59,412 nt of DNA from a virus, in the IMG/VR virus record IMGVR_UViG_3300042924_000395, positions 1 through 59,412 of that record; one strand, given 5' to 3'. The notes under the pieces were generated by a model. It searched no databases. It was given only the letters and a program-made list of their open reading frames with translations, and was not told the origin of the DNA. Numbering within the stretch: position 1 is the stretch's first letter; every line of letters begins with the position of its first letter. A program made the translations under genes and the position numbers. This document shows positions 42,284 through 59,412 of this stretch, piece after piece.

Positions 42284-45200
42284 ATGGCTGAATGTCAAGT
42301 ATTTAGAAATGATGATGGTGTAATTGAAAGAGTAGAAGCTCCTAATGGGCAGCCTTCTACTCTATATAAAACTCTGCAAGATCTTGTAAAAGACAAGGAG
42401 CAAGCCTTACGTCTATGGGCACAGGTGTACACTGGTTCATTTAAGAACTGGTTTGGTGATTGGGAAAGAAAGCAAGGTTCTAAAGTAGTTGATGAAAATG
42501 GTGAACCATTAATAGTAAATGGTGATAAATTTCAATCAGATATAGTAACACCTGGACCTAATCAATTTAAGTCTGTACTTAATGAAGGATCATTTGCCAT
42601 TGACAAGGGTGGATATGATAATACACAGGTAAGAACAGAAGCTATTCCTAGTGGAGAGGGAGTGGTAGCACGTAAGACAGCAAGAAGACAAGAACTTGAA
42701 TCACTTGGTGCATTTAATGTACAGTTTGTTGAAGGAGGGATTAAGTATAGCTTTGATCCTACTAATGTTTATTTCCAAGATAAGAACATGGCAAGTTCTA
42801 TTGCTTCTCCACAGACTGTGGCTAAGATAAAAGAAGTGCTTGCTAAAATGGGTGTTAGCATAGAAGACTTATATGAATATGCAAAAAACACAGACATTGA
42901 TGTAAAAGGTAAGACAGCATTAGCTGACCTTACTAGAGGTGTCATAGCCATAGCTAATCAACAAGAAGGACAAGCATTAACAGAGGAGATGGTACACATA
43001 GCTACAGCTATGATAGAACAAACCAACCCTGGATTAATTACTCAAATGATTTCTAAGATAGATAGATTTAAAATCTACAAGGAAACATATGATGCATACA
43101 AAGACACTTATACACTTCCTAATAGCAAACCTGACATTCGTAAGATAAAGAAGGAGGCTGTAGATAAGTTAATAACTGAACTGATTGTTAACCAAATGGA
43201 GAACACAGATCAGTTCCCTGAGTTAAGAGAAGAAATTAATCAATCTTTTGTAAGAAACCTATGGAATGCTATTCTTGATTTCATTAATGGAATGTATAGA
43301 AAAGCAAACATTGATATATTTACAGAGGTAGCTTCTCAGATAGGATCAGGAGATATCAGTGGTGATATAGCTGACATCAAACAAGGAGGTATATTCTTCC
43401 AATTGTCTGATGCTCAGAAAAAAATTACAGATAGCTTAGATCAAACTAAGAATACTATAACTAAGGTTTATGAAGATCAAGAAAAGGTAGATCCTATTCT
43501 ATTAGATTCAGAAGAAGCAAGTAACTTTTATCAAGCTCAGAAACCTGATGGTACAACTGAAAGAGTACTCAAGAGAGTTACTGACAGAGTAAAGGCTTGG
43601 TATAAAAAGAAGTTTCCTGGTAAGGTGTTTACTAAACAAGAGAAAGAGTTCAATGAACTAAAAAGAAAGTTTGGTGTTAAAGGACACCAAGATCTTGAGG
43701 ATATCCATCATAGATACTATAATGAAGATGGTACAAGAAGAGTAAAACCTGTAGATGCTCCAAGCACATTTAACTTAGAGACTAAACAGATGTATCAACT
43801 TCTTGAAAACTATTATGTAAAATTAATTGATAGTTTCCCAGAGGGTACAATCATTAGAGCTGAGGTTATTATATACAATCCTAAAGATAAAGAAGCTGGT
43901 ACAATTGACTTCTTAGCAATTGAGCCAGATGGTAAAACGCATATACTAGACTGGAAGTTCTTGCAGTTTGCAGAAGGTTCAGAAGATGTAGCGTTCTTTA
44001 AACAAGGGGCATATGATATACAGTTAGGAACTTACAAAGACATCTTACGTAACTATTATGGAGTTAAGAGCTTTGGTATGACTAGAGCTATTCCTATAAT
44101 GATGAAGATGGAAACACAGAACAAACCAGATGGTACATCTGAGAATGTTATAAAAGGTATAGCAGTGGGTTCTGTAAATGCAAAAGAGATTACAGACTTA
44201 AGATTACTTCCTGTATCTGAAAAGACAGAGTCTACTGGTTATGAAAAACTTGATAAGTATTTGGCAAAGTTAAATACTCTATACGAGCGTATTTCTGGTC
44301 AGAAAGCTGAAGAGGAAGAGCGTCAATTTAAGTATGCTCGTATGAGAGAACTTAAGAGAGCCATTCGTCTTGCACAAGGAACAGGAAACATTGCTGAATT
44401 AATCAATGTAATTCTAACAACTAGAGCTAAGGGAGAGCAAATCATCAATACATATGACACTATATTCAAAGATAGAGATGCTTCTTCTGAAGACTCTACT
44501 AATAAAGAACTGTCTGAGTTTGCAGGAGAGTTAAGAAATTATATAGAGACTGCTGAAATCTTTGATAGAGTTGATGCTGAGATTGGTGATCTTATATATA
44601 GTCCTGAGATGGAAATAGACGCTAAGACTGATGAAGATAAAAAGTTACTTACTGAGTTAAGAGAATTAAGAGCTAACCTTGAAAAGGAAGCTAAGAACAT
44701 CTACAAGTCTAAGCAAGAGCTTATTGACATTGCTTTTAAGTTTGCAGATAAACATATAGGTCAAAGAAACTTAACAACAGGATTAACCAAACCTGAGGTT
44801 GTTACAAAAGGATTGGCTGCTAACTTTAGAGGTGTAGAAGACCTTGGACAAAGATCTTTGAACGTACTTGCTAAATTAAATAGACAAGCTAGAAGCAATG
44901 CTAATGCTGATTCCTTAGAAGAGATTAAAGAGCTAATGGAGATCAGAGAGAGGTTTGTTAAAAGAGGTGGTGATATCAGACAAACTATCAAAAAGGTATA
45001 TCAAAAGGATGAGAAGGGACAATGGATAAACAGACTGATCTACAAATATGATGAAAAGTTTCGTAGTGAGGTTGATGCCAGAGCTGCAGCAGGAGGAGAT
45101 ATAACTTGGCTTAAAAATAACATTGATATAGAAGCATATAAGAAAGAAGCTGATGCTGTGTTAGAAAAGAATCTTAAGCGTATCAATGATGACTTCCCTG

Positions 45201-47518
45201 GTAACAGTCCAGAGATTGTAGAGAAAAGAGAGAAAGCAATTATTCAAGAGAGTCGTAAGTATGACATAACTAGAAAGGACTTTAATGGTTGGAACAACTA
45301 CATCATTAAAAACCATCCTTTAAGTAAGTGGGAATCAGCTGAGTATAAGGACATTAAGAATGATCCAGATCTATTTGCATTGTATAACTTCATTAGTAAG
45401 ACTAATAAAAAAGCTAAAGATGAAGGGTTTATTCAAAACTCTATATCTTCTTTCTTCTTACCATTTGTTAGAAAAACAATGGCAGAGAGTCTTGTTTGGG
45501 ATGGTAAGTTATCTGTAATGGAAAACTTCTATCAAAGCTTAAAGATTAATCCTGATGATGTAGGATATGGTAAGTTTGATGAGATTACAGGTAAGATGGA
45601 AAACTCTATACCTAAGTATTATACATATGACTTTACAAATACAGATGGTGTAAATGATTATTCTGAGGTGAGTGAAGACTTATTTAAGAACATGATTTTG
45701 TACATCCAACAGATTAATAAATACAAATATCTAACAGAGGTAGAAGAACAAGTTAAGTTCTTAAGTACAATTGAAGAATTTAAGAACGCTCACCTTGCTG
45801 TGGATAGAGTGAGTAATATTGTATTGGATGATGATGGTGAACCTAAGGTGATGACAGGTAACGCTGAAAACATGAAGACCTTAGATGAGTTTACAAGAGC
45901 TGTCTTCTATGAACAAAAGTATGTACTATCTGATACTGACACTCCTTTGTACTTTGGCAAGGTGGTAAATGGTATGAAAGGTGTAGTTAACTCTATAGCT
46001 GGAAGAGAAGTGTTTAAACCAAATGAAGAAGTGTCAGCAACATCTATGATTAAAACCATGGATGCTATGAATAGAGGATTCCAAATAAAGACTCTTGGTC
46101 TTGAGTTTTTATCAGGTGCTGTCAATGCATTTGGTACAAACATTCAGATGGCTGCACAAGCAGGAGAATACTTCAAAGCTAGAGAGTTTGCTAAGAATGA
46201 AGCAAAGCTTTTATTACAAAATGTAGGTGATAAAGAAAAGTTTGTTCAACTACTTAATACATTCTTACCTCTTTCAGAAGACCCTTCTTATGAGCTATTT
46301 AAGAAAGCAGGTTTAACTACATTAACTCAGAACAATCTAGGAGACATGTTAATGATCTTTATGAAGTATCCTGAACAACATGCAGAAAAGGCAACCTTCT
46401 TTACATTATTAGAAAACACAATGGTGGTAGATGGTAAGATTGTGAGTATTCCTAAATATGTAAAAAACAAATATAAAGATCGTAACTCTAGTCAAGCTAG
46501 ATATAGAGAAACTAAACCTTTGATAGAGAAGGAGATAGAGGAGTTAAAGAAAGACAAATCTATTGCTGTTACATCAAAGATGGAAGATGGCAAGTTAGTC
46601 ATCCCTGGTTTGGATCTAAGCAACAAGAAAGAGTTACAAAGACTGGGGTTATTAAGTAGACGTCTATCTGAAGCAGCAACTGGTAATACTAGCAAGGAAA
46701 ACATGAACAGAATGGGTATGTCTATTTGGACAGCTAGTATGATGGTATTTAAAAGATGGATTCCTAAACTTGCTGATACACGTTTCTCTGAATTTAGAAA
46801 GGTATCAAATGACTTCTCTGTAGAGTTTGGAGAAGAAGGTATAGAAGGAGAAAGTTATGATATTGGTAGGCTTCGTCTGCTAGGTTCTGTATTAGGAAGA
46901 TCTATAATGGAACGTAGTAATTATATTAAGGACATTCTTGCTATGAATGATGCTGGTATTGCAGAGCTTGATAGAATGTTCTTTGAATACGCTCAGGAGT
47001 TCAAAAAAAGAACTGGTGAAGAAATGACTATGTCTAAGGATGACTTTATAGATATGGTTAGAAACAACTTACGTAACCAGCTTAAGGAATTAACTATCTT
47101 GTTATCTTTGTTTGGAGCAATGCTTGCTCTTGGTGTAATGGCCCCAGATGATGATGAAGGAGATAGAGCTTCTAGAAACTTCCATAGATATAGTCAAAAG
47201 GTAGTTGATAGATTTGTAGGTGAGCTTTCATTCTTCTACAATCCTGCTGAGGTACAAAAGCTAGCTAGTGGTAGCATCTTCCCAGCAATTGGTCTATTAG
47301 ATGATGTAACTAAGTTTACAAGACACTTCTTTATAGAAACAACAGGCATGGACTTTGATCCAAGCACAACAGATGAAGAAGCTAGAAAGAAAGCAAGACC
47401 TATCAAGTACTTAATGAAAGCAGCTCCTGTAACTAAATCTTTCTTAACTTATGGAGCTATATTTAGCCCTGAGTTTGCTACAGAGTTTGACATAACCATA
47501 CAGAAACAAAATAGATAG
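42284..47518 (+). CDS. Giant cargo protein with PD-(D/E)XK nuclease core and degenerate ART and zincin segments, 1744 aa
   Basis: Residues 40-90 (FKNWFGDWE, then SKVVDENGEPLIVNGD) match the start of phage polyvalent-protein ART/PBECR-like domains, but the usual YHG is replaced by NGD, so it looks inactive. Residues 215-350 hold ALTEEMVHIATAMIEQ, an EExxH version of the HEXXH helix in the polymerase gene, followed by a similar helical tail. Residues 490-620 are a RecB/Cas4-like PD-(D/E)XK nuclease: AEV (E527), GTIDFLAI (D542), ILDWKF (D556, K558) and QLGTYKDIL. Long coiled coils follow. A hydrophobic helix near residue 1610 (LTILLSLFGAMLALGVMA) could span a membrane. It starts 11 bases after the polymerase stop. 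Probably ejected with it. Confidence 0.7.
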   Translation: MAECQVFRNDDGVIERVEAPNGQPSTLYKTLQDLVKDKEQALRLWAQVYTGSFKNWFGDWERKQGSKVVDENGEPLIVNGDKFQSDIVTPGPNQFKSVLNEGSFAIDKGGYDNTQVRTEAIPSGEGVVARKTARRQELESLGAFNVQFVEGGIKYSFDPTNVYFQDKNMASSIASPQTVAKIKEVLAKMGVSIEDLYEYAKNTDIDVKGKTALADLTRGVIAIANQQEGQALTEEMVHIATAMIEQTNPGLITQMISKIDRFKIYKETYDAYKDTYTLPNSKPDIRKIKKEAVDKLITELIVNQMENTDQFPELREEINQSFVRNLWNAILDFINGMYRKANIDIFTEVASQIGSGDISGDIADIKQGGIFFQLSDAQKKITDSLDQTKNTITKVYEDQEKVDPILLDSEEASNFYQAQKPDGTTERVLKRVTDRVKAWYKKKFPGKVFTKQEKEFNELKRKFGVKGHQDLEDIHHRYYNEDGTRRVKPVDAPSTFNLETKQMYQLLENYYVKLIDSFPEGTIIRAEVIIYNPKDKEAGTIDFLAIEPDGKTHILDWKFLQFAEGSEDVAFFKQGAYDIQLGTYKDILRNYYGVKSFGMTRAIPIMMKMETQNKPDGTSENVIKGIAVGSVNAKEITDLRLLPVSEKTESTGYEKLDKYLAKLNTLYERISGQKAEEEERQFKYARMRELKRAIRLAQGTGNIAELINVILTTRAKGEQIINTYDTIFKDRDASSEDSTNKELSEFAGELRNYIETAEIFDRVDAEIGDLIYSPEMEIDAKTDEDKKLLTELRELRANLEKEAKNIYKSKQELIDIAFKFADKHIGQRNLTTGLTKPEVVTKGLAANFRGVEDLGQRSLNVLAKLNRQARSNANADSLEEIKELMEIRERFVKRGGDIRQTIKKVYQKDEKGQWINRLIYKYDEKFRSEVDARAAAGGDITWLKNNIDIEAYKKEADAVLEKNLKRINDDFPGNSPEIVEKREKAIIQESRKYDITRKDFNGWNNYIIKNHPLSKWESAEYKDIKNDPDLFALYNFISKTNKKAKDEGFIQNSISSFFLPFVRKTMAESLVWDGKLSVMENFYQSLKINPDDVGYGKFDEITGKMENSIPKYYTYDFTNTDGVNDYSEVSEDLFKNMILYIQQINKYKYLTEVEEQVKFLSTIEEFKNAHLAVDRVSNIVLDDDGEPKVMTGNAENMKTLDEFTRAVFYEQKYVLSDTDTPLYFGKVVNGMKGVVNSIAGREVFKPNEEVSATSMIKTMDAMNRGFQIKTLGLEFLSGAVNAFGTNIQMAAQAGEYFKAREFAKNEAKLLLQNVGDKEKFVQLLNTFLPLSEDPSYELFKKAGLTTLTQNNLGDMLMIFMKYPEQHAEKATFFTLLENTMVVDGKIVSIPKYVKNKYKDRNSSQARYRETKPLIEKEIEELKKDKSIAVTSKMEDGKLVIPGLDLSNKKELQRLGLLSRRLSEAATGNTSKENMNRMGMSIWTASMMVFKRWIPKLADTRFSEFRKVSNDFSVEFGEEGIEGESYDIGRLRLLGSVLGRSIMERSNYIKDILAMNDAGIAELDRMFFEYAQEFKKRTGEEMTMSKDDFIDMVRNNLRNQLKELTILLSLFGAMLALGVMAPDDDEGDRASRNFHRYSQKVVDRFVGELSFFYNPAEVQKLASGSIFPAIGLLDDVTKFTRHFFIETTGMDFDPSTTDEEARKKARPIKYLMKAAPVTKSFLTYGAIFSPEFATEFDITIQKQNR

Positions 47519-47687: not shown

Positions 47688-49748
47688 ATGGCTAACATTA
47701 CTTGTAATGCACAACAGTGCCCAATTATACTAGATAGCACCTGCGTTTTCTACGAAGGTCCTAACTTGGTATTTAGTGGTATTAATACTAATGACAATTT
47801 ACAAACTGTAATACAGAAGATTAATGCTGCATTTGCTACAAATGGCTATGGTACGTCAGGTACTTCTGGAGCTAGTGGCACATCTGGCAGTTCTGGTAGC
47901 AGTGGTAAATCTGGTACAAGTGGTACGTCTGCATCTTCTGGTTCCTCTGGATCAAGTGGTACGTCTGGTAAATCTGGAACATCAGGTACTTCTGGTAGTT
48001 CAGGCTCATCAGGTACTTCAGGTTCTTCTGGATCGAGTGGTACATCAGGTTCATCTGGAACATCTGGTTCATCAGCTACATCTGGTTCATCAGGCACTGG
48101 AGGAACTAGTGGATCTAGTGGCACATCAGGTAGCTCTGGTCTTGCTGGTGATAGATATGCTACCTTCTCAACTACACCTTTTACTTTAGGTAATGCAGGT
48201 ACAATAACAGTAGGAACTGGCTTAGCATACACAGTGGGTCAATCTGTGCTCATAGCAAATAATCAATTTAATTATCAACATAGCGTAGTTATTTCATATA
48301 TTTCTGGAACAGGAGCTTTACAATTTGCAGCACCTGATGTATTAGTAGGATCTGGAACATATTCTATCTGGTCTGTTAACCTTGTAGGTGCAGCAGGTGG
48401 TGATGGTTCTAGTGGAACATCAGGCTCTTCTGGTACCTCTGCTACAAGTGGGTCTTCTGGCTCAAGTGGTAGTTCAGGTACAAGTGCTACTAGTGGATCT
48501 AGTGGAACTAATGGAAGCTCAGGAACATCTGCATCTTCAGGTACTTCTGGCTCATCAGGTACTGATGGTAGTTCTGGAACTGCTGGTACTTCTGGTACCT
48601 CTGGCACAGCTGGTTCTAATGGAACATCAGGAACAAATGGTACTGATGGTAGCAATGGTACATCTGGTACCTCTGGAACAAATGGTTCATCTGGAACTGA
48701 TGGTTCATCAGGTACTAATGGATCTTCTGGAACAAGTGGAACGTCTGCATCAAGTGGAACGAGTGGAACAAGTGGTACAAGTGGAACTAATGGAACATCT
48801 GGATCGTCTGGTAAAGATGGTAGTACAGGTGCAGCTATTGCTAACTGGTATGGAGAGTTCTCTAGTACACAAACACAACCATTGCTTGGAGTGAATACTC
48901 CTACAATATGGACGTTTGACACTACAAGTTTATCTTATGGTATTTCTGTAGTGGCTAGCTCAAGAGTAACAGTTTCACATCCTGGTCAATATGAATTCAT
49001 CTTCTCAGCACAGGTTAGTAAAACAACATCTCCAATTGCTGAGGTACAGATATGGCCTAGAATCAATGGCTTTGATGTAGCTAATTCAAATTCATTTATA
49101 GAAATACAGCAAACAGAGGTGGAATACATTCCTACTATTGCTTATATATTTAATCTACAAGCTAATGATTATGTACAGTTTGTCTTTGCATCTGCTGATT
49201 CAACAGTTCAACTTGTTGCTAAACCTGCACAAGTTTCTCCTTATGCATCTCCAGCTGCTCCTTCAATAATATTAACTGCTAAGCAAGTGGGTGTTGCTGT
49301 TTCAGGTACATCTGGTACAAGTGGAACAACTGGCACATCTGGTACTTCTGCATCAAGTGGAACTTCTGGATCTTCTGGAACAAGTGCTAGCTCAGGTACA
49401 TCAGGTACAGATGGTAGCTCAGGCACTGCAGGTACTAGTGGTAGCACAGGTACATCAGGTACTGCAGGTACGTCAGGATCATCTGGAACTTCAGCTAGCT
49501 CTGGTAGTGATGGATCATCTGGCACTAGTGGCACTGATGGAAGTTCTGGTACGAGTGGAACGAGTGGAACTAGTGGAACTGATGGGTCTTCTGGAACAGC
49601 AGGAACAACAGGTACAGCAGGAACAACAGGAACTAGTGGTACTGTAGGTACATCTGGAACATCAACAACAAGTCTTGGTACAAGTGGAGATTCAATCACT
49701 ATACCTCCTTCAGAAGGAACTACAACTACAACAACCACTGCACCTTAA
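47688..49748 (+). CDS. Long Gly-Ser-Thr fibre, proximal half with C1q-like domain, 686 aa
   Basis: The N-terminal anchor motif (CVFYEGPNLVFSGINTND, then a helix) is shared with 4703 and 5882. Three G-x-x repeat blocks (about residues 53-153, 236-382 and 539-667) are separated by a beta module (TVGTGLAYTVGQSVLI to WSVNLVGAAGGDG) and a jelly-roll C1q/TNF-like domain (about 383-538; HPGQYEFIFSAQVSKT, QIWPRINGFDV, ANDYVQFVFA). It ends in a poly-Thr tail (TTTTTTTAP) with no head or chaperone domain. The next gene begins with a headless beta module and carries the head, so the two may form one composite fibre. Nearly every repeat triplet offers Ser or Thr for glycosylation. Confidence 0.82.
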   Translation: MANITCNAQQCPIILDSTCVFYEGPNLVFSGINTNDNLQTVIQKINAAFATNGYGTSGTSGASGTSGSSGSSGKSGTSGTSASSGSSGSSGTSGKSGTSGTSGSSGSSGTSGSSGSSGTSGSSGTSGSSATSGSSGTGGTSGSSGTSGSSGLAGDRYATFSTTPFTLGNAGTITVGTGLAYTVGQSVLIANNQFNYQHSVVISYISGTGALQFAAPDVLVGSGTYSIWSVNLVGAAGGDGSSGTSGSSGTSATSGSSGSSGSSGTSATSGSSGTNGSSGTSASSGTSGSSGTDGSSGTAGTSGTSGTAGSNGTSGTNGTDGSNGTSGTSGTNGSSGTDGSSGTNGSSGTSGTSASSGTSGTSGTSGTNGTSGSSGKDGSTGAAIANWYGEFSSTQTQPLLGVNTPTIWTFDTTSLSYGISVVASSRVTVSHPGQYEFIFSAQVSKTTSPIAEVQIWPRINGFDVANSNSFIEIQQTEVEYIPTIAYIFNLQANDYVQFVFASADSTVQLVAKPAQVSPYASPAAPSIILTAKQVGVAVSGTSGTSGTTGTSGTSASSGTSGSSGTSASSGTSGTDGSSGTAGTSGSTGTSGTAGTSGSSGTSASSGSDGSSGTSGTDGSSGTSGTSGTSGTDGSSGTAGTTGTAGTTGTSGTVGTSGTSTTSLGTSGDSITIPPSEGTTTTTTTAP
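47845..48150 (+). repeat. Gly-x-x coding repeat block, 686-aa fibre, first
   Basis: 9-base periodic repeat coding mainly GTS and GSS triplets. Similar blocks lie at about 48394-48834 and 49303-49689 in the same gene. Confidence 0.85.
48394..48834 (+). repeat. Gly-x-x coding repeat block, 686-aa fibre, second
   Basis: The same repeat type with frequent GTN and GTD triplets, lying between the beta module and the C1q-like domain. Confidence 0.85.
49303..49689 (+). repeat. Gly-x-x coding repeat block, 686-aa fibre, third
   Basis: The same repeat type, distal to the C1q-like domain and ending in the poly-Thr tail of the protein. Confidence 0.85.
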
Positions 49749-49772
49749 TAATAAATAAATAAAGAAATAAAA

Positions 49773-52607
49773 ATGCCTTATAGTAACATTACAATAACCA
49801 TTCAGACAGGTCTTACGTTTATTCCTGGACAATATGTCCAAGTGATACATGATGAGAACAACTATATGTTTGGTCAAGTTGTATCATATAATTCAGGAAC
49901 AGGACAATTCATATTTGAACCAGTTAGTTATTTAGGAGCTGGTACATTTACTAGTTGGACTGTTGTAACTTCAGCTGCTCCTGGTGAGGATGGAACAAGT
50001 GGTACGTCTGGAACTGCTGGATCTAGTGGTTCAACAGGAACCTCAGGTTCTAGTGGAACTGATGGTAGTTCAGGAACAAGTGGAAGTGCAGGTACTAGTG
50101 GCACTGATGGCTCTAGTGGTACATCAGCATCTTCAGGAACAAGTGGATCTTCAGGAACTGATGGTTCATCTGGAACATCTGCTACGTCTGGATCTACTGG
50201 TACAAGTGGATCGAGTGGATCAAGTGGTTCATCTGGTAGCTCAGGTACTTCTGCTTCTAGTGGATCTTCTGGCACATCTGGAACAGATGGATCTAGTGGT
50301 ACATCAGGAACAGATGGCTCAAGTGGAACTGCAGGAACTACTGGTACATCAGGTACGAGTGGTAGTGATGGTTCTTCTGGTACAAGTGCAACAAGTGGCT
50401 CATCTGGTACGTCAGCTTCTAGTGGTTCCTCTGGAACTTCTGGTTCAAGTGGTAGTGCAGGTACTGCAGGTCTTTCTGGAGACTTATATAAAACAACATC
50501 AACTACATCATTAGCAATAGGAACAGGTACAAAGAATCTTACTGTTGGTACAGGTTTATCTTACACAGTGGGACAGGTTGTAGTTCTTGCTTATGATCTA
50601 AGCAATAGCATGGGTGGTGATATTATATCTTATAATTCTGGATCAGGTGCAATGTCTGTAAACGTAACTGCTACTACTGGTAGTGGTACTTATGCAGCAT
50701 GGGATGTAAACTTAGGTGGTGCTGCTGGAGGTGATGGATCTTCAGGTACTAGTGGTGCAGATGGTATTGATGGTAATCTTGCTATATGGAGATTCTCTAC
50801 AAACACAGATACAAGCACAGACCCAGGTAGTGGATATTTTAGATTAAACTCTGCAACATGGGGAGCAAGCGTAACAGCAATTGCTATTGACAATCAATCA
50901 TACTCTCCAAGCGTAAACTTTGGTACATACCTAGATACATTACAGAACAACTCTATTATAAAACTTGTATATGTTAGTGATAAGAATACATTCAAGATTT
51001 TAAGAATAGATGCTCTTCTTCCTAATCAAACAGGATTTGAAGAATTCACTGTAACACAATTAGGATCAGGTGGTACAGATCCTAATGATAATGATCAATT
51101 CTATTTTGAATTTAATGGTATAAGTGGATCTTCTGGTACTTCAGGTACGAGTGGAACATCTGGCACTACAGGTACTAATGGTTCGTCTGGTACTGATGGT
51201 TCTTCAGGAACGTCAGGATCAAGTGGAACTTCAGCATCTAGTGGTACGTCAGCTTCCTCTGGTACATCAGGTACATCAGGCACTGATGGGTCTAGTGGAA
51301 CATCTGCTTCTAGTGGATCAAGTGGTACTGATGGATCGTCTGGTACTTCTGGTACTGATGGCTCATCTGGTACAAGTGGATCGTCTGGCACTGATGGATC
51401 AAGTGGTACTAGTGGTACTTCTGCTTCTTCTGGAACTAGTGGTTCAAGTGGAACAGATGGCTCTAGTGGAACAAGTGGAACAACAGGAACAAGTGGAACA
51501 TCAGGTTCTTCAGGTACTAATGGAAGTTCTGGTACATCAGCTTCAAGTGGTTCTTCTGGTACAGATGGTAGTTCTGGAAAGAATGGATCATCTGGAACTA
51601 GTGCATCTAGTGGTACAAGTGGTACGAGTGGATCAAGTGGAAGTTCAGGAAGTAGTGGAAGCTCTGGAACTTCAGGATCTTCTGGTTCTTCTGGTTCTTC
51701 AGGCTCTTCTGGAAAGGCTGGTTCATCAGGTACATCTGGAGCCAATGGAGCTACAGGTCCTCAAGGTCCAACAGGTGGACCTGGCCCAACTGGACCACAA
51801 GGAGCAACTGGACCACAAGGTGCAACAGGTGGACCAGGCCCTACTGGTCCTCAAGGTGCACAAGGACCACAAGGTGCAACAGGACCACAAGGACCTCAAG
51901 GTCCAGGTGGGCCTCCAGGACCAACAGGACCAACAGGACCACAAGGACCTACAGGTGTTGTTGGTGGATTGAGTCAAGGTGTACAAACATATGGTTCTGT
52001 TGTAACAACAACAGCTAATAATGGATGGGCTGGTTATCAAACAACAACAGCTGGTGTATATCATCAATTGATGTCAGCTGGTGGTGATTATGGATTGTAT
52101 TCTAATAGTTATAGCTGGGGACATTATTATAGTGCTGGTAACAATGGTTGGGGTATTCGTGGAAGCACCACTGTAAACTGGGCTGCTTGTACTACGAATG
52201 GTACAATGTATTATACATCAGAGTCTTATGCTACATATAATATGTTTGCTGTATCCTTTGTACCTACTTCTGATGTTAGACTTAAAGAAAACTTTGCTCC
52301 ATTAGAAAACTCTCTTGATAAACTTAAAGGCTTACAAGGTGTATCTTATAACAGAATTGAAGATATTACTAAGAGAAGAGAGATTGGTTTTGTAGCACAA
52401 GAGGTTGAGAAAACATTGCCAGAGTTTGTACATTATCATGAAGATACAGATGTATATGGTATTGCTTATGATAAGATGACAGCTTTACTTACAGAAGGTT
52501 TGAAAGAAGAAGATCAGAAAGTAGATGCTATAGAGGCAAGAGTCTTAACTTTAGAAGCCAAGATTGCAACATTAGAAACACGTTTAGGTAACTTAGAAAA
52601 TATATAA
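49773..52607 (+). CDS. Long collagen-like fibre, distal half with S74 chaperone, 944 aa
   Basis: It begins directly with a beta module ([20 protein letters not shown] to [13 protein letters not shown]) and lacks the anchor motif. Repeat blocks of GTS/GSS/GTD triplets (about residues 70-235 and 450-655) flank a second beta module and a fibre domain ([19 protein letters not shown]). A genuine collagen-like stretch of 22 GPQ/GPT/GAT-type triplets (about 656-728) leads to a Trp/Tyr-rich head and a Peptidase_S74 chaperone: TSDVRLKE with S833-D834 as the self-cleavage pair, [17 protein letters not shown] and a C-terminal coiled coil. This is the receptor-proximal, trimerising end of the fibre. It starts 24 A-rich bases after the proximal-half gene. 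Confidence 0.85.
49981..50475 (+). repeat. Gly-x-x coding repeat block, 944-aa fibre, first
   Basis: 9-base periodic coding repeat, triplets GTS, GSS, GTD and GSA. Confidence 0.85.
51118..51735 (+). repeat. Gly-x-x coding repeat block, 944-aa fibre, second
   Basis: The longest Ser/Thr-type G-x-x block in the window, directly followed by the proline-containing collagen-like block. Confidence 0.85.
51736..51960 (+). repeat. Proline-containing collagen-like repeat (GPQ/GPT/GAT)
   Basis: Codons encode a run of G-P-Q, G-P-T, G-A-T and G-G-P triplets, a classical bacterial collagen-like pattern. Proline is mostly in the second triplet position and only three times in the third. Confidence 0.85.
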
Positions 52608-52609
52608 TT

Positions 52610-53005
52610 ATGTCAAAAGAATATAGATGGGGGATACAGGATTTAAAGATAGCTAAGTCTGCTGATGGATTAACAAATGTAATAAAGAAAGTTTATTACA
52701 GAAGAAGTCTTAAGCAAATTGTAAATGATATACAACATGATGTTCATTACTTTGGTGAGTTTAAATTAGCTCCTGCAAATCCTACAAGCTTTACAGAATA
52801 TCAAAATCTCACTCAGGAACAAATATTTACATGGTTAGATGCTATTCTTCCTGTAGATTTTATAAACTCTAGGTTGGATGATTACATGGCTAAGAAGCTT
52901 GAGAAAGATGAACTTGAAGCATTCCAACTTCCTAATCGACTAGTCACTGAAGAAGTAGATCCTACAAAACTTCCAAACTCACCAGGAGGTCAGATAGGAG
53001 AATAA
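52610..53005 (+). CDS. Small fibre-cluster protein, DUF7936-like, 131 aa
   Basis: The pattern RWGIQDLKIAKSADGLTNVI, a beta segment (YFGEFKLAPANPTSFTEYQN), LTQEQIFTWLDAIL and a C-terminal acidic, Pro-rich tail resembles a small family seen next to tail-fibre genes in many marine phages, which I believe is DUF7936. It starts 2 bases after the fibre stop, so it is co-translated with it. The function is unknown; a fibre-assembly helper or small virion component is plausible. Confidence 0.55.
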   Translation: MSKEYRWGIQDLKIAKSADGLTNVIKKVYYRRSLKQIVNDIQHDVHYFGEFKLAPANPTSFTEYQNLTQEQIFTWLDAILPVDFINSRLDDYMAKKLEKDELEAFQLPNRLVTEEVDPTKLPNSPGGQIGE

Positions 53006-53012
53006 AACAATT

Positions 53013-53044
53013 TTTGGAAAGGGTGCAAGGATTAACTATCTTTG
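53013..53044 (+). promoter_or_regulatory. Bacteroidetes-type promoter for the oxygenase gene
   Basis: TTTG (53013-53016), a 20-base spacer, and a perfect TATCTTTG (53037-53044). The predicted start near 53050 gives a leader of about 13 bases to the ATG at 53063. The -7 element lies inside a 14-bp hairpin. Confidence 0.7.
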
Positions 53045-53051
53045 TACCCTT
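53019..53051 (+). terminator. Hairpin closing the fibre operon, overlapping the next promoter
   Basis: AAGGGTGCAAGGAT (53019-53032) pairs over 14 bp (two G-U pairs) with ATCTTTGTACCCTT (53038-53051) around TAACT. The following AATTATTTAAT is only weakly T-rich, so termination may be partial. Confidence 0.55.
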
Positions 53052-53062
53052 AATTATTTAAT

Positions 53063-53665
53063 ATGAAAAACAAAACATTAGTCTTTCCTCAAAAAGAAAT
53101 AGATGTTCAAAACTATTATTGGTTTAAACATGGATTTGATGATAATGCATTGAATCAAATTTATCAAGATGTTGCCACTCTTCCTTTTATGGATGCTGGG
53201 ACAGGAGATGATAATATTCAGGATAAGAAGGTAAGATCATCAAAGATAAAATGGATTCCCCAAGAAGATAAGTGGGAGTGGGTATATGCAAGATTAATGG
53301 GAATGATTGTCGAAGCAAATAAATCTTTATGGAACTTTGATTTACATAGTGTATTAGATAATATTCAATATACAGAATATCATGCTGAGGATGGTGGACA
53401 TTATGATTGGCATCAAGATCTTGGACCAGGTTGGTTATCAAGAAGAAAGATAAGCATCACTGTACAATTATCTGATCCTAGTGAATATGAAGGAGGTGAA
53501 TTAGAATATTGGAAAGGTGGTCCACCTGAAAATGCAGATAAAGCACCTAAAGGAAAAGGAGTTGTATTTATATTTCCTTCATACATGATGCACAGAGTGA
53601 CACCAGTTACAAAGGGAGTGAGAAGATCATTGGTATTGTGGATAGGAGGAATTCCTTTTAAATAG
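53063..53665 (+). CDS. 2-oxoglutarate/Fe(II) oxygenase, prolyl-hydroxylase-like, 200 aa
   Basis: The double-stranded beta-helix motifs are complete: HYDWHQD (H117, D119) for iron, the distal His in SYMMHRVTPV (H177), and GVRRSLVLW with R187 for 2-oxoglutarate. The EYEGGELEYW strand and FIFPSYMMHRV are typical of PKHD/prolyl-4-hydroxylase-type enzymes common in phages. The length of 200 residues is normal. It is the last plus-strand gene, placed directly behind the collagen-like fibres but under its own promoter, and its stop overlaps the stop of the opposing heptosyltransferase gene by 8 bases. A fibre protein is a plausible substrate, but host proteins or other targets cannot be excluded. 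Confidence 0.82.
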   Translation: MKNKTLVFPQKEIDVQNYYWFKHGFDDNALNQIYQDVATLPFMDAGTGDDNIQDKKVRSSKIKWIPQEDKWEWVYARLMGMIVEANKSLWNFDLHSVLDNIQYTEYHAEDGGHYDWHQDLGPGWLSRRKISITVQLSDPSEYEGGELEYWKGGPPENADKAPKGKGVVFIFPSYMMHRVTPVTKGVRRSLVLWIGGIPFK

Positions 53666-54749
53666 GAAGTTTAGACATAACATCATTTACTGAAATACTC
53701 TTATGACATTCAAAATGTCTAGGAGTATTTTCATTTTCAGGACACCACATCCAGTCTCCTTTGTTAAACTTGAACATAGGATTGTTCCAACATCCATTAC
53801 ATACATCCTTATTAGTTATGCGTATACAGTTGTTTTGAAACTCATGGTCTTCTGTTGTGAAGTTAGATATCATAACTCCTTGCTTACCTAATCCCCAATT
53901 GAGCCAACTGATTCCACTAGATAATCCTATGTATGTATCTGCATACCACAGATAGTTCATTACATTCTCAAGAGATGTATCTTCTAACTTCTCTGCTCCA
54001 TAGTCATCTGCTTCCTGAGATAGTTCAAACACTCTATATCCTTTAATCTTTAGTGTTTGTATTAGTTCTGGCCAGTAATACCAGTGCTTACACTGAGCTG
54101 TAGATCTAGTGGAGATACAAATATATTCATTAACTGCAGGTCTTTCTTTAGGAGTGAATGCAATCCTAGGCTGTAACTCTTCATGCTCTAAGCACAAGAT
54201 ATTACTAGCTGCCTGTTGTAATGGTATAGTGGCAGGATGTACAGGTTCTTTTGATTCATCCCAATACCAGCCAATCTCCATCATTGCAATTATATTAGGA
54301 ACAGACTGTCCTCTTCCTACAAACTCTAATTCAGGATATACATCTTTGAATAGTTCATTCCTGAACGTGGATACAATAACATGACAATCATACACTTCTT
54401 TAAACTTTAAACAATAGGGCATCCAGGCAATGCTATCTCCTAATGATTTACTTTCAAAAGATATAAACACTCTCTTTCCTTTCACCTCATCTAATATGTT
54501 GATTTGCTTAACTGTACGTCCTTGGTATTTGACAAAGATGGCTATGTCAGATAGATACTTTCTATTAAGTCTAGCCCATGCTCCTGGCTTTAGTTTTGTT
54601 TCATAGATAGTTATGTGTTGATCTGTAAACATACCATCCACCTTACCTTTTCTATCTACAAACTGTATATCATACTCTCTATCTTTTCCTTCGTCTCCTG
54701 TTAGTTCAAAGTATAAACCATTAACATGGTGTAAGTTATATGTTATCAT
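53658..54749 (-). CDS. Autotransporter-type protein O-heptosyltransferase (TibC/BAHT family), 363 aa
   Basis: The layout matches the bacterial autotransporter heptosyltransferases. An N-terminal beta domain is followed by SKSLGDSIAWMPYCLKF with D105 at the catalytic-base position, CISTRSTAQCKHWYYWPELI and LSSGISWLNWGLGKQGVMIS. The C-terminus has the diagnostic four-cysteine metal finger VCNGCWNNP...DWMWCP...FECHKSI (C317, C320, C336, C348). Known members transfer ADP-heptose to Ser residues of repetitive adhesins in the cytoplasm. Here the gene faces Ser/Thr-Gly-rich fibre genes, so the phage fibres are obvious candidate acceptors. It overlaps the upstream oxygenase-like gene by 4 bases. The family call is strong; donor sugar and target are inferred. 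Confidence 0.85.
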   Translation of the reverse strand: MITYNLHHVNGLYFELTGDEGKDREYDIQFVDRKGKVDGMFTDQHITIYETKLKPGAWARLNRKYLSDIAIFVKYQGRTVKQINILDEVKGKRVFISFESKSLGDSIAWMPYCLKFKEVYDCHVIVSTFRNELFKDVYPELEFVGRGQSVPNIIAMMEIGWYWDESKEPVHPATIPLQQAASNILCLEHEELQPRIAFTPKERPAVNEYICISTRSTAQCKHWYYWPELIQTLKIKGYRVFELSQEADDYGAEKLEDTSLENVMNYLWYADTYIGLSSGISWLNWGLGKQGVMISNFTTEDHEFQNNCIRITNKDVCNGCWNNPMFKFNKGDWMWCPENENTPRHFECHKSISVNDVMSKLPI

Positions 54750-55324
54750 TTCTCTGTATTAAAAAAGAATGTTTGAAATAGTCTACCATCTTGTAGATCT
54801 TTGCCAAAGTAATCCAAAGATACATGGAATAAGTCACCTCTATATAAAATAAGTCTGTTATATACATTACCTATTCTATCTACCATCTCCCACTTTGTAT
54901 AATCCATACCTTCAACATGTGGTGCTGCAGTTTTTGTTTCTTCTTCTGTATGTTCAGTATATATCCAATTCTTAAGACCTGTTTCTTTGTGTCTAAAGAT
55001 ACCTGTGCCTGAAGACAAAGGAGCATCAGGAGTAAGATAGCACACACCTGCCCAATTTGTAGTGCCATCACTGTGAATCCATGATCTATCTTGTGCTGTT
55101 GTGTATTGGAAAGCACCTGAATTATCATCTCCCCACCAAACTACATCACCTGCAAAGGGTCTAATATTATCTTGTATTATTTGTTTAATACTATCATTTA
55201 GAAAAGACTTAGTTCTTCTACCAGGATAGTTACCAGACTCACCAAATTCTTGACTCATAGCAAACGCTCTCACCTCATCTGGGTTATTGTAAAAGTCTGA
55301 TATGGATAACATTTCTACTCTCAT
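54746..55324 (-). CDS. DUF6445-like 2OG-oxygenase-fold protein, 192 aa
   Basis: Recognisable pattern: SISDFYNNPDEVRAFAM, NYPGRRTKSF, SWIHSDGTTNWAGVCYLTPD, SGTGIFRHKETG, IGNVYNRLILYRGDLFHVS and GRLFQTFFFN. H84, D86, H167 and R181 occupy the positions of an Fe(II)/2-oxoglutarate site. Members occur in marine phages and bacteria next to glycosyltransferases. The substrate is unknown. It lies between the heptosyltransferase and the GT4 gene with 4-base overlaps on both sides, so it belongs to the same modification pathway. Confidence 0.7.
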   Translation of the reverse strand: MRVEMLSISDFYNNPDEVRAFAMSQEFGESGNYPGRRTKSFLNDSIKQIIQDNIRPFAGDVVWWGDDNSGAFQYTTAQDRSWIHSDGTTNWAGVCYLTPDAPLSSGTGIFRHKETGLKNWIYTEHTEEETKTAAPHVEGMDYTKWEMVDRIGNVYNRLILYRGDLFHVSLDYFGKDLQDGRLFQTFFFNTEK

Positions 55325-56343
55325 AAGTTGTTGTATGCGTTTATATATAATTGTCTTGTTCTGTCTGATGTATATCCTTCATTAATCTTCAGTATGTTAT
55401 AATAATACTTAGCCAAGATTTTAGCTACATTGTCCCAGCTATATTCTTCACGTCTATCTAATATAGCCTGTCTACGTTCTTCATAGTTGTGTATTACATT
55501 TACAATACCATCTACCACAGACTCTGTTGTAATTTTATTAATCACATGCATACCAGGGATAGGTTTACTACCTCTATAAGTTCCCACAATAGGAACTCCA
55601 CATGCTGTAGCTTCCATCAATGTTAGATTAGGATGTCCTGCTTCTAGCATAGATGGATGTACAAAGATTGTACTAGATCTGTATAACTCTCTAGTCTCAT
55701 CATCTGTAGGGTTTGTTAACTTTAAAGTTAACTTTGGATAATCCAATAGCTCAGAATGTATCTCAAAGAACTTGTTGTTATCAGGATGCCCAGCTATTGT
55801 AATAGGTAGGTTTAATAACTTAGCTGCTTCTATACCAAATCTAAATCCTTTTCTATCATATCCAGAATCACCTGCTAATCCATTGTTAGCTAACATTAAT
55901 AAAGAGTGTGGTCTTGGTGCATAGTCAGGAGTAAAGAATTCTGTATTAGCCCCATGTGGTAGATAGAATAATTTATCTGTAGCATCAAAGTAATCTATAA
56001 GATATTCAGCATGCGTAAAAGATATAATGCTATGCTTCATAGCCTCTAGGTTTTGCTTAAACACCCAGCTATCTTTACCATACCATTCTGTGTGGTGATC
56101 ATGTAGAGAGTATACATAAGGTATACCTTTATCTCTACAATATAAAGCTTGATTAGCTAAATGAGCATGAACAATTGTGTTAGGCCATTTCTCTAAGTCA
56201 TTCATATATTTAACATCTACAACATGTCCTTGTTTCTCAAGGGCAACCTTATATTCCCATGTAAGCCTTTCAACAGCTCCCCATCCATTTGGTGGTATGG
56301 TGATTAGTCCTGTTGCTACATGTACTGATTTTATTGGTTCCAT
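55321..56343 (-). CDS. GT4-type glycosyltransferase, 340 aa
   Basis: A GT-B enzyme. The N-terminal Rossmann half has an early glycine-rich acceptor loop (PPNGWGAVERLTWEYKVAL) and HAHLAN. The C-terminal half starts after FYLPHGANTEFFTPD, and the donor site reads STIFVHPSMLEAGHPNLTLM followed by EATACGVPIVG. Length and layout are those of family 4 retaining transferases. No membrane segment is present, so it should act in the cytoplasm on a nucleotide sugar. It overlaps the upstream GT2 gene by 13 bases. The acceptor is unknown; extension of the protein-bound sugar is a natural hypothesis. Confidence 0.85.
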   Translation of the reverse strand: MEPIKSVHVATGLITIPPNGWGAVERLTWEYKVALEKQGHVVDVKYMNDLEKWPNTIVHAHLANQALYCRDKGIPYVYSLHDHHTEWYGKDSWVFKQNLEAMKHSIISFTHAEYLIDYFDATDKLFYLPHGANTEFFTPDYAPRPHSLLMLANNGLAGDSGYDRKGFRFGIEAAKLLNLPITIAGHPDNNKFFEIHSELLDYPKLTLKLTNPTDDETRELYRSSTIFVHPSMLEAGHPNLTLMEATACGVPIVGTYRGSKPIPGMHVINKITTESVVDGIVNVIHNYEERRQAILDRREEYSWDNVAKILAKYYYNILKINEGYTSDRTRQLYINAYNNL

Positions 56344-57005
56344 TTGGTTCTAAATTTAATTTCATCAATTCTAAACTTCCTTTCTTTCTCTTCACTCATA
56401 CCTCCCACATTTAATGTTTCCATATGACAGACAATAGAATGTCTTACAAGAGCATGTTTAATACCAGCCTGCTTTAGTCTTTCTGCATAGTCGTTGTCTT
56501 GATAGTACATATCAAACAACTCATCAAATGGTAAGATCTTATCTAGTGCAGACTTCTTAATCACTGTACACCAACCTTGTAATGCTTCTGTCACAGCATA
56601 AGATTCATGATACTTACTATCAGTTCCTACAAAATGATTAGGGAACCATCTAGCATATAACAATGGGTCTTTAGGAGAGAATGCTTCTATGTCTTCTCTG
56701 TAGTCATGTACCTTCATCATCTCTGAGAACCACCATCTTTCATAAGCTACATCATCATTAGATATAACCACCCAATCACCTTGGCAATATGTAAATGCTA
56801 TGTTTAAAAACTTGTTGTAGTTAAAAGAATTCTCAGGATGTATATAGTTATGAATACGTGCATACCTATTTGGATCTTGTGTACCTGAGTCTACTAATTG
56901 CACACGAAACCTAAAGTCAATCTCACTATCATGCAATGTATCTATTGTACGTTGTGTCAGAGCCACATTAGTGCTATCTGTTAATATGATTACATCTATT
57001 GTCAT
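56331..57005 (-). CDS. GT2-type (GT-A) glycosyltransferase, 224 aa
   Basis: Begins TIDVIILTDSTN with the GT-A donor-binding strand. WVVISNDDVAY carries the metal-binding acidic motif, EALQGWCTVIKKSALDKI is the acceptor loop, and FDMYYQDNDYAERLKQAG is the conserved base motif of family 2. It is short but complete for the catalytic domain and has no membrane anchor. It overlaps its neighbours by 4 and 13 bases within the minus-strand cluster. The sugar and acceptor are not predictable. Confidence 0.85.
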   Translation of the reverse strand: MTIDVIILTDSTNVALTQRTIDTLHDSEIDFRFRVQLVDSGTQDPNRYARIHNYIHPENSFNYNKFLNIAFTYCQGDWVVISNDDVAYERWWFSEMMKVHDYREDIEAFSPKDPLLYARWFPNHFVGTDSKYHESYAVTEALQGWCTVIKKSALDKILPFDELFDMYYQDNDYAERLKQAGIKHALVRHSIVCHMETLNVGGMSEEKERKFRIDEIKFRTKWNQ

Positions 57006-59412
57006 TTCTTTCTGAATGATTTATGTGTATTGTCTATTAAAGAAAATCCATCTGCTTGGGTAGTAAGTCTTTTCTTAACCATTCCCATTTGAGGCCCTGC
57101 AAAGATACTATTAAAATACATATCAGCAGCATCCCATTTGTGTGTTCTTAAGTTGTTCTTTAAAAACTTAGCTGCCTCTTTTGGAAACATAATAGATTGT
57201 AAACCAATGATATGATTGGTTACATACATTTCATTATTGATATCTTTAACAATAGGTGATTGTGGCCAGCCATGTTCTAGTGTATCAGCATCTCCAAAAG
57301 ACATATAGTTTATGTTGTTTGGTACCAATAAGTGTGCACATTCCTCAACTTTTCGTACGAAAAAGTGTATGTCTGTCTCAATGATACAATCTCCTTCACA
57401 CACCATTAAGAAGTCACAATCATGAAACTCTGTTAAGATGGCATTCTTAAATGCTTCGTAGCATCCATAATGTGCTGGGGTAAGTGCAGTGCCATACTGT
57501 TGAATTTGTTGCTCATTGAAGAGTTCCATTGAAACACAATCTGGTCTGAGACAGTTATGCTTGGGTGGTAATGACTTATAGGGCTCGTTAAACTGTATGA
57601 CATATTCCCAGCCATGGTCTTTGACTCTTTCAAGGGATGCTCTACTTTGTTGTTCTCTTTCATCATTTAATGTGGTTTGTATATGAACTAATTTAATCTT
57701 AGGTCTTTCGTTCTTCCATTCAAACTTTCCTGTGTGTTGGTACTTATGTAAGTTATCTTTGGTCAGCTTAAACTCTTCCAACTTATATTGAACATCTCCA
57801 TCATAAAAATCCATTTTAATATCTATAGGATCTCCTTTGAATTCAAACTGATAAACAAGTTCATGGTTCTTAGCTGGTATTATTCTTTTCCACATGTAAT
57901 CTTCAATAGATACATAGATGTTTCTATAGTCTCTGTTATATGTAAAGAAGTAGAACACATAATTGTTTGGTTTTCCAACAACAGGGATGATAGAATAATA
58001 CTCACTATTTGATGCTACACCTAATCCACTGTGAACTAACAAGGTATCCTTATCATTAGTAACTAACTGTATATCATTTGGGTTGAAGCTAAAGATAACC
58101 TTTGACAAATAGTCTTCTAGATAGTTCTCACATCTTCTTCTCTTACACACTTCGTTCCATTCTTCTGGTGTACGCACATCATCAAACTCTTTCAAGAAGA
58201 AGTCTGTGTCAAACATAATACCATTGGTCTGAATTCCCTTACCCTGTGGAGTGGGTAGGGTAGCAGCATATAACTTTTTATCTGTTCTGAATGCATCATT
58301 TACTGCAGGGATATCTCTAGGATCTAATACAACATCATATGTAGTATAGAAGAACCTCTTAAACCCAAGCTCTTTAGCAACCTTAGCTGCATTAAATATA
58401 TTAGTTAAGACAGTCAATGACTGGTTACTATTCTTCAATCCATTGATGTTGATCTCAGCAAAGTAGTCTGGTCTGTCATTGTAAAACCTGGTGTAATAAC
58501 TGTGATGAGTCAAAGGATTATGCACATCGTATATATAACAATCCACCATGTTTTGAATGTCTATATCTACAGGATAGTGAGACACTAGTATAATCTTTCT
58601 ACCCAATGGTTTAAGACTATTGATAGTATCCTTAGTCCATTGAATCCTATCCTTAATGTTTGGATAGGTGCCTAAGATGATACACTCTTCTTCCATTACA
58701 TCTAAGTTTAATTTTTTGATAATATTGGTAGCATCACTACCAAGATCTCCAGTTAAATAAACCATGTTCTCTTCATTGTTATATTTGTTACAGTATACAT
58801 CTAGATTATACATCACTTTGATCAAGTCATCATATTCCATGGCTTCTTTAATAGCAATAGGATTTAACTCCTTGTTACCTCTATCTCCCTTTGATGGAAA
58901 GAAGAATACATCACATGCTTTTAAGAAGTCACTTACATCATCACGCTCTCCCCAGACAACACAGTTGTTTGGTTTATTAGCCATCAGTGGCTTCCAATAA
59001 TTCTCAAAGTTACCTGCTTGGTTACCTAGGAAGTGAAACTTCACCTTATAGTTCTTAAGTCTTTCTGCTAGTTGAAATGCATAAGCTTGATTCTTTCTAG
59101 GTGTAAATAGTCCTACAGTTACAAAGTGTTTGTATTCAGGATCTAAGCCATAGTCTTTTTGTCTTTCTACTTTATTTCTAACCTTCTTATCAATAGGATA
59201 TTCAATTACTTCTGTAGGTACATCTAAGTCTATGTATTGGAATGAGTTGTAAGAGCTAACAAATATAAACTTGTCAGGCATCCATCTCTTGTGCTTAGGA
59301 TTGAATGAGCTGTCATGCGTAGTCTCTGATATCTTCCAAGTTCTATTATCTGAATAGATGAATGCAGAAAGCTTGTCGTCCATGAACATCTCAGGAAACT
59401 CTTCCATCACTA
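57002..59412 (-). CDS. Multidomain glycosyltransferase, N-terminus outside window, at least 802 aa
   Basis: Three transferase-like parts are visible. Residues 1-190 are the donor half of a GT-B/GT4 enzyme (KHFVTVGLFTPRKNQAYAFQ, then ELNPIAIKEAMEYDD). Residues 235-480 look like a GT-A fold (IILGTYPNIKDRIQWTKDTI, FFYTTYDVVLDPRD). Residues 605-790 look like a second GT-A resembling GT25 (LTPAHYGCYEAFKNAI, then FLMVCEGDCIIETD). A small beta insert lies at 490-600. The frame is open to the right edge, so the listed start is artificial and the protein is longer. It heads the minus-strand cluster, overlapping the GT2 gene by 4 bases. It could add several sugars in sequence. Confidence 0.72.
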   Translation of the reverse strand, partial: VMEEFPEMFMDDKLSAFIYSDNRTWKISETTHDSSFNPKHKRWMPDKFIFVSSYNSFQYIDLDVPTEVIEYPIDKKVRNKVERQKDYGLDPEYKHFVTVGLFTPRKNQAYAFQLAERLKNYKVKFHFLGNQAGNFENYWKPLMANKPNNCVVWGERDDVSDFLKACDVFFFPSKGDRGNKELNPIAIKEAMEYDDLIKVMYNLDVYCNKYNNEENMVYLTGDLGSDATNIIKKLNLDVMEEECIILGTYPNIKDRIQWTKDTINSLKPLGRKIILVSHYPVDIDIQNMVDCYIYDVHNPLTHHSYYTRFYNDRPDYFAEININGLKNSNQSLTVLTNIFNAAKVAKELGFKRFFYTTYDVVLDPRDIPAVNDAFRTDKKLYAATLPTPQGKGIQTNGIMFDTDFFLKEFDDVRTPEEWNEVCKRRRCENYLEDYLSKVIFSFNPNDIQLVTNDKDTLLVHSGLGVASNSEYYSIIPVVGKPNNYVFYFFTYNRDYRNIYVSIEDYMWKRIIPAKNHELVYQFEFKGDPIDIKMDFYDGDVQYKLEEFKLTKDNLHKYQHTGKFEWKNERPKIKLVHIQTTLNDEREQQSRASLERVKDHGWEYVIQFNEPYKSLPPKHNCLRPDCVSMELFNEQQIQQYGTALTPAHYGCYEAFKNAILTEFHDCDFLMVCEGDCIIETDIHFFVRKVEECAHLLVPNNINYMSFGDADTLEHGWPQSPIVKDINNEMYVTNHIIGLQSIMFPKEAAKFLKNNLRTHKWDAADMYFNSIFAGPQMGMVKKRLTTQADGFSLIDNTHKSFRKK

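Follow-up and report, generated by a model that had tools for sequence, protein, structure and literature searches.

What does a virus do with an enzyme of the kind that glycosylates bacterial autotransporter adhesins? The question is raised by the IMG/VR viral record IMGVR_UViG_3300042924_000395, which was analysed at its full length of 59,412 bases (the window). The window encodes a TibC-like O-glycosyltransferase of 363 amino acids (aa) at positions 53658-54749 of the minus strand. Two plus-strand genes for collagen-like fibres rich in Ser, Thr, and Gly (47688-49748 and 49773-52607) are convergent with the minus-strand operon of the enzyme. We regard it as likely, with real room for doubt, that a virus-specific sister of TibC and AAH that lacks the thumb of TibC O-glycosylates the shafts of the phage's own fibres and that the products of neighbouring genes extend the sugar chain. 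An earlier note on this DNA had placed such a system at 47688-54749. The enzyme and the two fibres it named are present there, but the range should reach 59410 to include five overlapping genes on the minus strand.

The 363-aa protein is a relative of TibC. Its top NCBIfam model is TIGR04414 (autotransporter O-heptosyltransferase) with 231.6 bits against a cut-off of 200. TibC (4rap) was matched by phmmer with an E value of 1.2e-40 and is the sole sequence relative of the protein in the PDB at E values up to 10, while the search against PHROGs gave no match at an E value of 0.1. The motif SLGDSIAW and the finger CxxC-x15-C-x11-C, from which the earlier note had recognised the family, were found at residues 102-109 and as C317-x2-C320-x15-C336-x11-C348 (53706-53801, minus strand), respectively. 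The spacing of the finger is identical to that of the iron finger of TibC (Cys-339, Cys-342, Cys-358, and Cys-370). The catalytic Asp-110 of TibC aligns with D105 (codon at 54435-54437, minus strand), and Thr-226, Lys-230, and Trp-305 of TibC are kept as T217, K221, and W282. D105 is invariant in all 38 rows of the alignment. Among 96 viral domains, a count that includes near-copies, the active-site Asp, the phosphate-binding Lys, and the sugar-binding Trp are each conserved in all 96, and the four Cys of the finger are conserved together in 95, as the earlier note had expected of close homologues. The finger accompanied by an LGD or IGD motif was also found by text pattern in all 80 of the best viral relatives.

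The predicted structure is consistent with this kinship. The first model exhibits a template modelling (TM) score of 0.81 against TibC, with residues 319-345 under 50 in the predicted local distance difference test (pLDDT). The second model, which was built from the 38-row alignment, has a mean pLDDT of 92.3, and the low-confidence stretch is gone. It matches TibC with a Z score of 36.5 and a root mean square deviation of 3.0 over 344 aligned residues spanning residues 1-363, and the runner-up is a GT9 protein with a Z score of 19.2. The predicted model acquires both the N-terminal beta-barrel and the GT-B catalytic core of the bacterial autotransporter heptosyltransferases (BAHTs).

The viral enzyme departs from TibC at two sites. 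In TibC, the dodecamer is built by a beta-hairpin thumb that is highly conserved and required and whose tip has two hydrophobic residues, Phe-265 and Val-266; the thumb-tip mutants F265D and V266D are dimeric and unable to modify TibA (PMC4358343; eLife 2014). Arg-286 of TibC contacts N1 of adenine and is the basis of ADP specificity, and replacing it with Ala removes all or most of the activity (PMC4358343). In the pairwise and the larger alignment alike, the 363-aa protein has a gap at the thumb residues, between its residues 249 and 250 (54000-54005, minus strand), and Arg-286 aligns with Val-263 (codon at 53961-53963, minus strand). The 11 alignment columns at the thumb site are empty in this protein and filled in 15/15 bacterial rows. 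The Arg-286 position is occupied by V, T, or A in 23/23 viral rows and by R in 15/15 bacterial rows.

Both losses are general among the viral relatives. The full thumb insertion of 11 residues was found in none of the 96 viral domains and in all 60 bacterial domains; 0-4 residues are left at the site in 86 of the viral domains and 6-10 residues in the other 10. The Arg is kept in 3/96 viral domains and 60/60 bacterial domains. Spacing across the thumb was also counted free of alignment, and it is 38-40 residues in 77/81 viral domains compared with 49 residues in 54/54 bacterial domains (21 domains were unmeasurable). Six further viral domains consist of five that lack both the Arg and the thumb and one (L506) that has both and whose catalytic Asp column is unaligned, which brings the Arg to 4 of 102 viral domains examined. 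L506 (G065:159700-161900) belongs to a 436-kb phage (G065) that has two TibC-like enzymes, the other of which (L391) lacks the bacterial-type thumb and Arg.

In the tree, 41 viral and 23 bacterial enzymes are on opposite sides of one branch with a support of 100/100, where the midpoint root serves for drawing only, the branches are long, the bacterial rows were hand-chosen among the top 79 loci of a single scan, and L506 is excluded. That this single phage acquired a bacterial adhesin enzyme recently is not favoured by that split. The viral enzymes are better described as a sister group of the BAHTs, and they probably work like a BAHT on another partner. Since the thumb and Arg-286 are absent, the 363-aa protein is not filed as a canonical BAHT. 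The earlier designation as an autotransporter-type O-heptosyltransferase was correct regarding the kinship to TibC and the finger, and it has to be withdrawn regarding the canonical class. The loss of the thumb argues against a dodecameric ring in the viral enzyme. Without the thumb, the enzyme would be expected to form a dimer or another small oligomer and not the 12-mer ring; such an assembly would be suited to a long fibre as substrate, in place of the beta-helix of an autotransporter.

The fibres of this phage offer abundant candidate acceptor residues. The fibre at 47688-49748 (686 aa, PF01391) has Ser or Thr in 106/112 G-x-x triplets, and the fibre at 49773-52607 (944 aa, PF01391), which ends in a C-terminal Peptidase_S74 chaperone (PF13884), has Ser or Thr in 119/144 triplets. 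These two are the proposed acceptors. A third collagen-like fibre (632 aa, 5882-7780, plus strand), which has PHROG tail-fibre matches, has Ser or Thr in 67/83 triplets. When the three shafts are pooled, Ser or Thr is found in 292/339 triplets, which bears out the description of the fibres in the earlier note. The 678 x and y positions of the shafts include 318 Ser, 186 Thr, 20 Pro, and 7 Lys. Runs of six successive triplets of the G-[S/T]-[S/T] type, sought as a codon pattern, gave 18 (overlapping) matches in the window and none in 100 dinucleotide shuffles, and a chance origin of the repeats was rejected on that basis. Judging by what is known of collagen, such proline-poor shafts may depend on sugars for stiffness.

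In the proposed mechanism, the enzyme would move a sugar from a nucleotide donor to the hydroxyls of Ser, and perhaps Thr, in the G-S/T-S/T shafts during infection, with Asp-105 as the putative catalytic base. TibC modified Ser and not Thr (PMC4358343). The first sugar would be set by the TibC-like enzyme, and the chain would be lengthened by the glycosyltransferases (GTs) of the overlapping gene row, namely a GT4, a GT2, and a large GT4.

The pairing of enzyme and fibre recurs across viral loci. Two scans of IMG/VR identified 20 and then 124 viral relatives of the enzyme, and the best 80 of the 124 were reduced at 95% identity to 48 dereplicated enzyme loci. A fibre was scored as an open reading frame (ORF) with at least 10 G-x-x triplets of which at least 60% have Ser or Thr. 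Such an ORF was found in the fetched flank of 37/48 enzyme loci and in 26/28 of those having at least 9 kb downstream, compared with 0/80 random viral loci. The random loci were found by an arbitrary 15-mer (80 of 97 used; 700 kb in total, mean 8.8 kb), and the contrast may partly reflect location and length, as the random loci, besides being shorter, need not come from the tail regions in which the enzyme loci lie. Four consecutive codon triplets of the G-[S/T]-[S/T] type were likewise found in 0/50 records of the random loci. The co-occurrence proposed in the earlier note was therefore recovered. The autotransporter barrel PF03797 was found in none of the 27 enzyme-bearing records searched, including G002, a longer record with the identical enzyme.

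The same pairing was approached from the capsid and from the fibre. The capsid fragment of the window (2-592) has at least 598 relatives, of which the best 80 were used and 35 of their longer records examined; the enzyme was found in 13 of the 35. Thirteen of these capsid relatives measure 100 kb or more; the enzyme is present in 11, and tracts of three triplets were found in 11/11 of these and in neither of the two without it (one-sided Fisher 0.013). Tracts of six triplets were found in 10/11 and 0/2 of the same records, respectively. A search of IMG/VR with the fibre pattern gave at least 120 stretches, of which 80 were taken, and 34 records of at least 40 kb were examined. The enzyme is over cut-off in 11/34 of these fibre-bearing records compared with 0/16 random records (one-sided Fisher 0.008), and in 4/8 of those of at least 100 kb. 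As a side observation, the capsid fragment has 98-100% identity across its 80 top-ranking contigs (out of at least 598), and the identity of the enzyme ranges from 46 to 100% across the best 80 enzyme loci, which are another set than the capsid contigs.

The enzyme is also found in other phage lineages. The capsid family phrog_11589 was identified in 9/50 enzyme-bearing records, many of which are fragments. Four of 50,697 named phage records have the enzyme: two 735-kb phages of equal length, one 636-kb phage, and Microcystis phage Mel-JY01. None of the four matches the capsid fragment, which found one weak record among the named phages. Mel-JY01 (PP395634) has a frame of 1016 aa with Ser or Thr in 187/202 triplets at 1.7 kb from the enzyme, and the 735-kb phage has a frame of 695 aa with Ser or Thr in 37/44 triplets just past a GT4. 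An annotated minus-strand coding sequence (739-2298) of Mel-JY01 crosses the 1016-aa plus-strand fibre frame (L393:2-3052), and the fibre frame is the likelier gene. Judged from gene content, viruses with the enzyme-fibre pairing probably coat their own fibres with sugar.

Several findings weigh against this interpretation. The activity of TibC requires both the thumb and Arg-286, and the viral enzyme must therefore assemble and contact its donor in another way. At two well-flanked loci (L042 and L066), which are adjacent in the enzyme tree, the enzyme is present but the vicinity holds no fibre of this type; one ORF of L066 is 32% Ser and Thr yet lacks a G-x-x run. The 636-kb phage has no Ser/Thr-Gly frame within 20 kb of its enzyme. 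Tracts of six triplets were found in 9/22 enzyme-less capsid relatives, all nine of which are under 65 kb and may be incomplete records or real exceptions. The enzyme was not matched over cut-off in 23/34 fibre-bearing records of at least 40 kb, many of which are fragments; such fibres are therefore commoner than the enzyme. Among these 34 records, the large GT4 was found in 10/11 with the enzyme and 1/23 without it, some matches being partial; it tracks the enzyme and not the fibre, as a host-surface pathway would also do. Relatives are also not independent samples.

The enzyme gene is the last of five minus-strand genes that overlap by 4, 4, 13, and 4 bases in an operon-like manner. In order, these encode the large GT4-containing protein (57002-59410, PF00534), which is cut by the window end, the GT2 (56331-57005, 224 aa, PF00535 with 24.5 bits against a cut-off of 23.3), the GT4 (55321-56343, 340 aa, PF00534 with 39 bits), a DUF6445 protein (54746-55324, 192 aa, PF20043 with 52.5 bits and phrog_1644 with 117 bits), and the enzyme. 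From its HxD...H appearance, we take the DUF6445 protein to be a possible 2-oxoglutarate-Fe(II) oxygenase. A 101,652-base record (L002) has the identical enzyme, the whole large GT4 of 887 aa, and, upstream, a third oxygenase and a GT9-like gene. Around the 48 dereplicated enzyme loci, the flanks of which are often cut, the large GT4 has homologues at 45, followed by the GT4 (37), the GT9-like gene (32), an APS-kinase-like gene (16), a sulfotransferase (14), the GT2 (13), and the three oxygenases (9, 13, and 9). In some relatives the TibC-like domain and a GT4 domain form one fusion protein, and in one relative examined FkbM and GT-DXD domains are joined to the enzyme. At one locus (L003:11288-12911), a sulfotransferase (PF13469) with APS-kinase-like and cytidylyltransferase-like genes is beside the enzyme. 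The enzyme-bearing phages may sulfate a glycan, and in the relatives sulfotransferases may cap the proposed fibre chain.

The plus strand between the fibres and the enzyme encodes a DUF7936 protein (52610-53005, 131 aa, PF25590 with 45.4 bits) and a 2-oxoglutarate-Fe(II) oxygenase (53063-53665, 200 aa, PF13640 with 57.6 bits). The earlier note had suggested that two oxygenases add hydroxyl groups. The oxygenases do not belong to the core partners: their homologues were identified at only 9-13 of the 48 loci with their often cut flanks, and the shafts have few Pro and Lys, which makes the proposed role weak. Upstream of the fibres, two long ORFs of 4145 aa (29835-42272) and 1744 aa (42284-47518) have no Pfam or PHROG family match, and the former also has no PDB sequence match. 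The 4145-aa ORF contains GSDFDIDKL, which presumably resembles the DxDxD motifs of phage RNA polymerases.

These neighbours could also belong to a cluster that remodels the surface of the host (its lipopolysaccharide (LPS), its capsule, or one of its surface proteins) and may thereby exclude other phages, with the fibre vicinity being a variable region of host interaction. For pelagimyophages, the GTs of the tail-fibre region were explained in this manner, with rfaE among the sugar genes (PMC7029224). The GT9-like gene, the second of its kind in the cluster, resembles LPS heptosyltransferases II, III, and I at about 45 bits, which is under the cut-off, and Hld-kinase-like genes occur in 32 of the 50,697 phage records compared with the TibC-like enzyme in only 4. 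Against this, the studied relatives modify Ser of proteins, and the enzyme model is far nearer to TibC than to LPS heptosyltransferases (Z scores of 36.5 and 17.8, respectively). The enzyme is paired with one type of fibre repeatedly, also in records, many of them fragments, that gave no match to this capsid family, and the two capsid relatives over 100 kb without such fibres are also without the enzyme and the large GT4. We consider host-surface remodelling unlikely, and glycosylation of the fibres is retained as the preferred explanation.

The donor sugar of that glycosylation bears on whether the enzyme is a true BAHT that uses ADP-heptose exactly as TibC does. The TIGR04414 score above cut-off, the retained D, T, K, W, and Cys residues, and the heptose-type genes of some enzyme-bearing phages agree with this. 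In G016 and G024, which are relatives of this phage, the enzyme gene is convergent with a heptose-type cassette. The top models in G016 are ADP-heptose 6-epimerase (TIGR02197, 167 bits), heptose-7-phosphate kinase (TIGR02198, 130 bits), and heptose-1-phosphate adenylyltransferase (TIGR02199, 93 bits) together with a weak HAD-type match, all of them below curated cut-offs, and the cassette of G024 was identified from gene order, motifs, and a kinase match. The compact cassette (epimerase, kinase, adenylyltransferase, and HAD) adjoins the TibC-like gene of the two related phages at L484:12785-15057 and L497:4818-7087. Among 27 enzyme-bearing records, GmhA is over cut-off in one, the 636-kb phage, and rfaE domain II was matched in three, none over cut-off. 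The heptose kinase model (rfaE domain I) was matched in 7/50 records, 48 of which are enzyme-bearing, again with none over cut-off. G002 (101.6 kb, identical enzyme) has no match to any of the three heptose models tested, so this phage would need a donor from its host, as far as G002 goes. Hld-kinase-like genes in named phages were observed mostly in cyanophages (P-SSM2 and Synechococcus and Prochlorococcus phages), and tblastn found no TibC-like enzyme in them.

What speaks against a true BAHT is that the thumb and Arg-286 are absent, when F265D and V266D of TibC fail and its mutant with Ala for Arg-286 has little or no activity left. The loss of the Arg weakens the case for full use of ADP-heptose. 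The Arg was found in only 4/102 viral domains, and all four such genomes (G038, G065, G068, and W02) have the kinase match, compared with 3/44 other enzyme-bearing records (about 0.0002 by hand arithmetic, or 0.002 for the three cases other than L506, with kinship and multiple looks ignored). A true BAHT is therefore quite improbable here. We tentatively suggest, as a possibility short of even odds, that large phages evolved a branch of their own without thumb and Arg, which, instead of a 12-mer ADP-heptose enzyme, became a coater of collagen-like G-S/T fibres into mucin-like stalks, perhaps sulfated in some lineages, and that in the lineages with the Arg the donor is ADP-heptose and the phage supplies the heptose kinase itself. 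It is very doubtful that the pairing is nothing more than host-range cargo, in which the enzyme acts elsewhere, such as on another virion protein or on DNA. Fibres without the enzyme are common, and the large GT4 is tightly linked to the enzyme (10/11 and 1/23, some matches partial), but there is no sign of a DNA acceptor, and protein or LPS is the substrate of the closest families whose acceptors are known.

Sugars on G-x-x shafts are known from glycosylated collagen-like proteins such as bacterial BclA and the mimivirus collagens, which are made by different enzymes; the phage shafts here differ from these in being poor in Pro and Lys. The viral enzyme shares with the BAHTs TibC and AAH (PMC4358343) the fold, the N-terminal beta domain, the catalytic Asp, the Thr and Lys that bind phosphate, the Trp that binds the sugar, the four-Cys spacing, and a Ser-rich partner gene. 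Unlike them, it is thumb-less, has Val for the adenine-contacting Arg, has no autotransporter found with it, is beside or fused to GT4 enzymes, and has a collagen-like phage fibre as its partner. Mycobacteriophage virion proteins are glycosylated, with glycans at the C-termini of capsid and tail-tube subunits according to PMC12619734. The system proposed here from sequence would similarly place sugars on the phage's own virion proteins, but through another enzyme family and on fibre shafts. Pelagimyophages likewise have GT genes and rfaE in aquatic phages, with many GTs amid tail fibre genes; however, GT8 is the most represented family there, the genes were interpreted as modifying the host O-chain, and the available part of the source (PMC7029224) mentions no TibC-like enzyme. 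Phage proteins annotated as Aah/TibC are present in databases (A0A6J5SVC1). In the open-licence literature of PubMed Central (PMC), we found no paper that ties a TibC-like enzyme to a phage function and no report of the fibre linkage, the losses of thumb and Arg, or the nearby heptose cassettes.

If the proposed glycosylation is true, coats of virus-made O-glycan would be present on the fibres of many large environmental phages from lineages far from the mycobacteriophages. This would have consequences for how the phages adsorb, how stiff the fibres are, and how they escape degradation. It would also give a function to proline-poor Ser/Thr-Gly fibres that are otherwise merely called collagen-like. 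The viral enzymes form a natural set of thumb-less TibC relatives for the evolution of donor choice and oligomeric state in this fold, and Mel-JY01 is a named phage with a known host in which the glycosylation of fibres may be tested.

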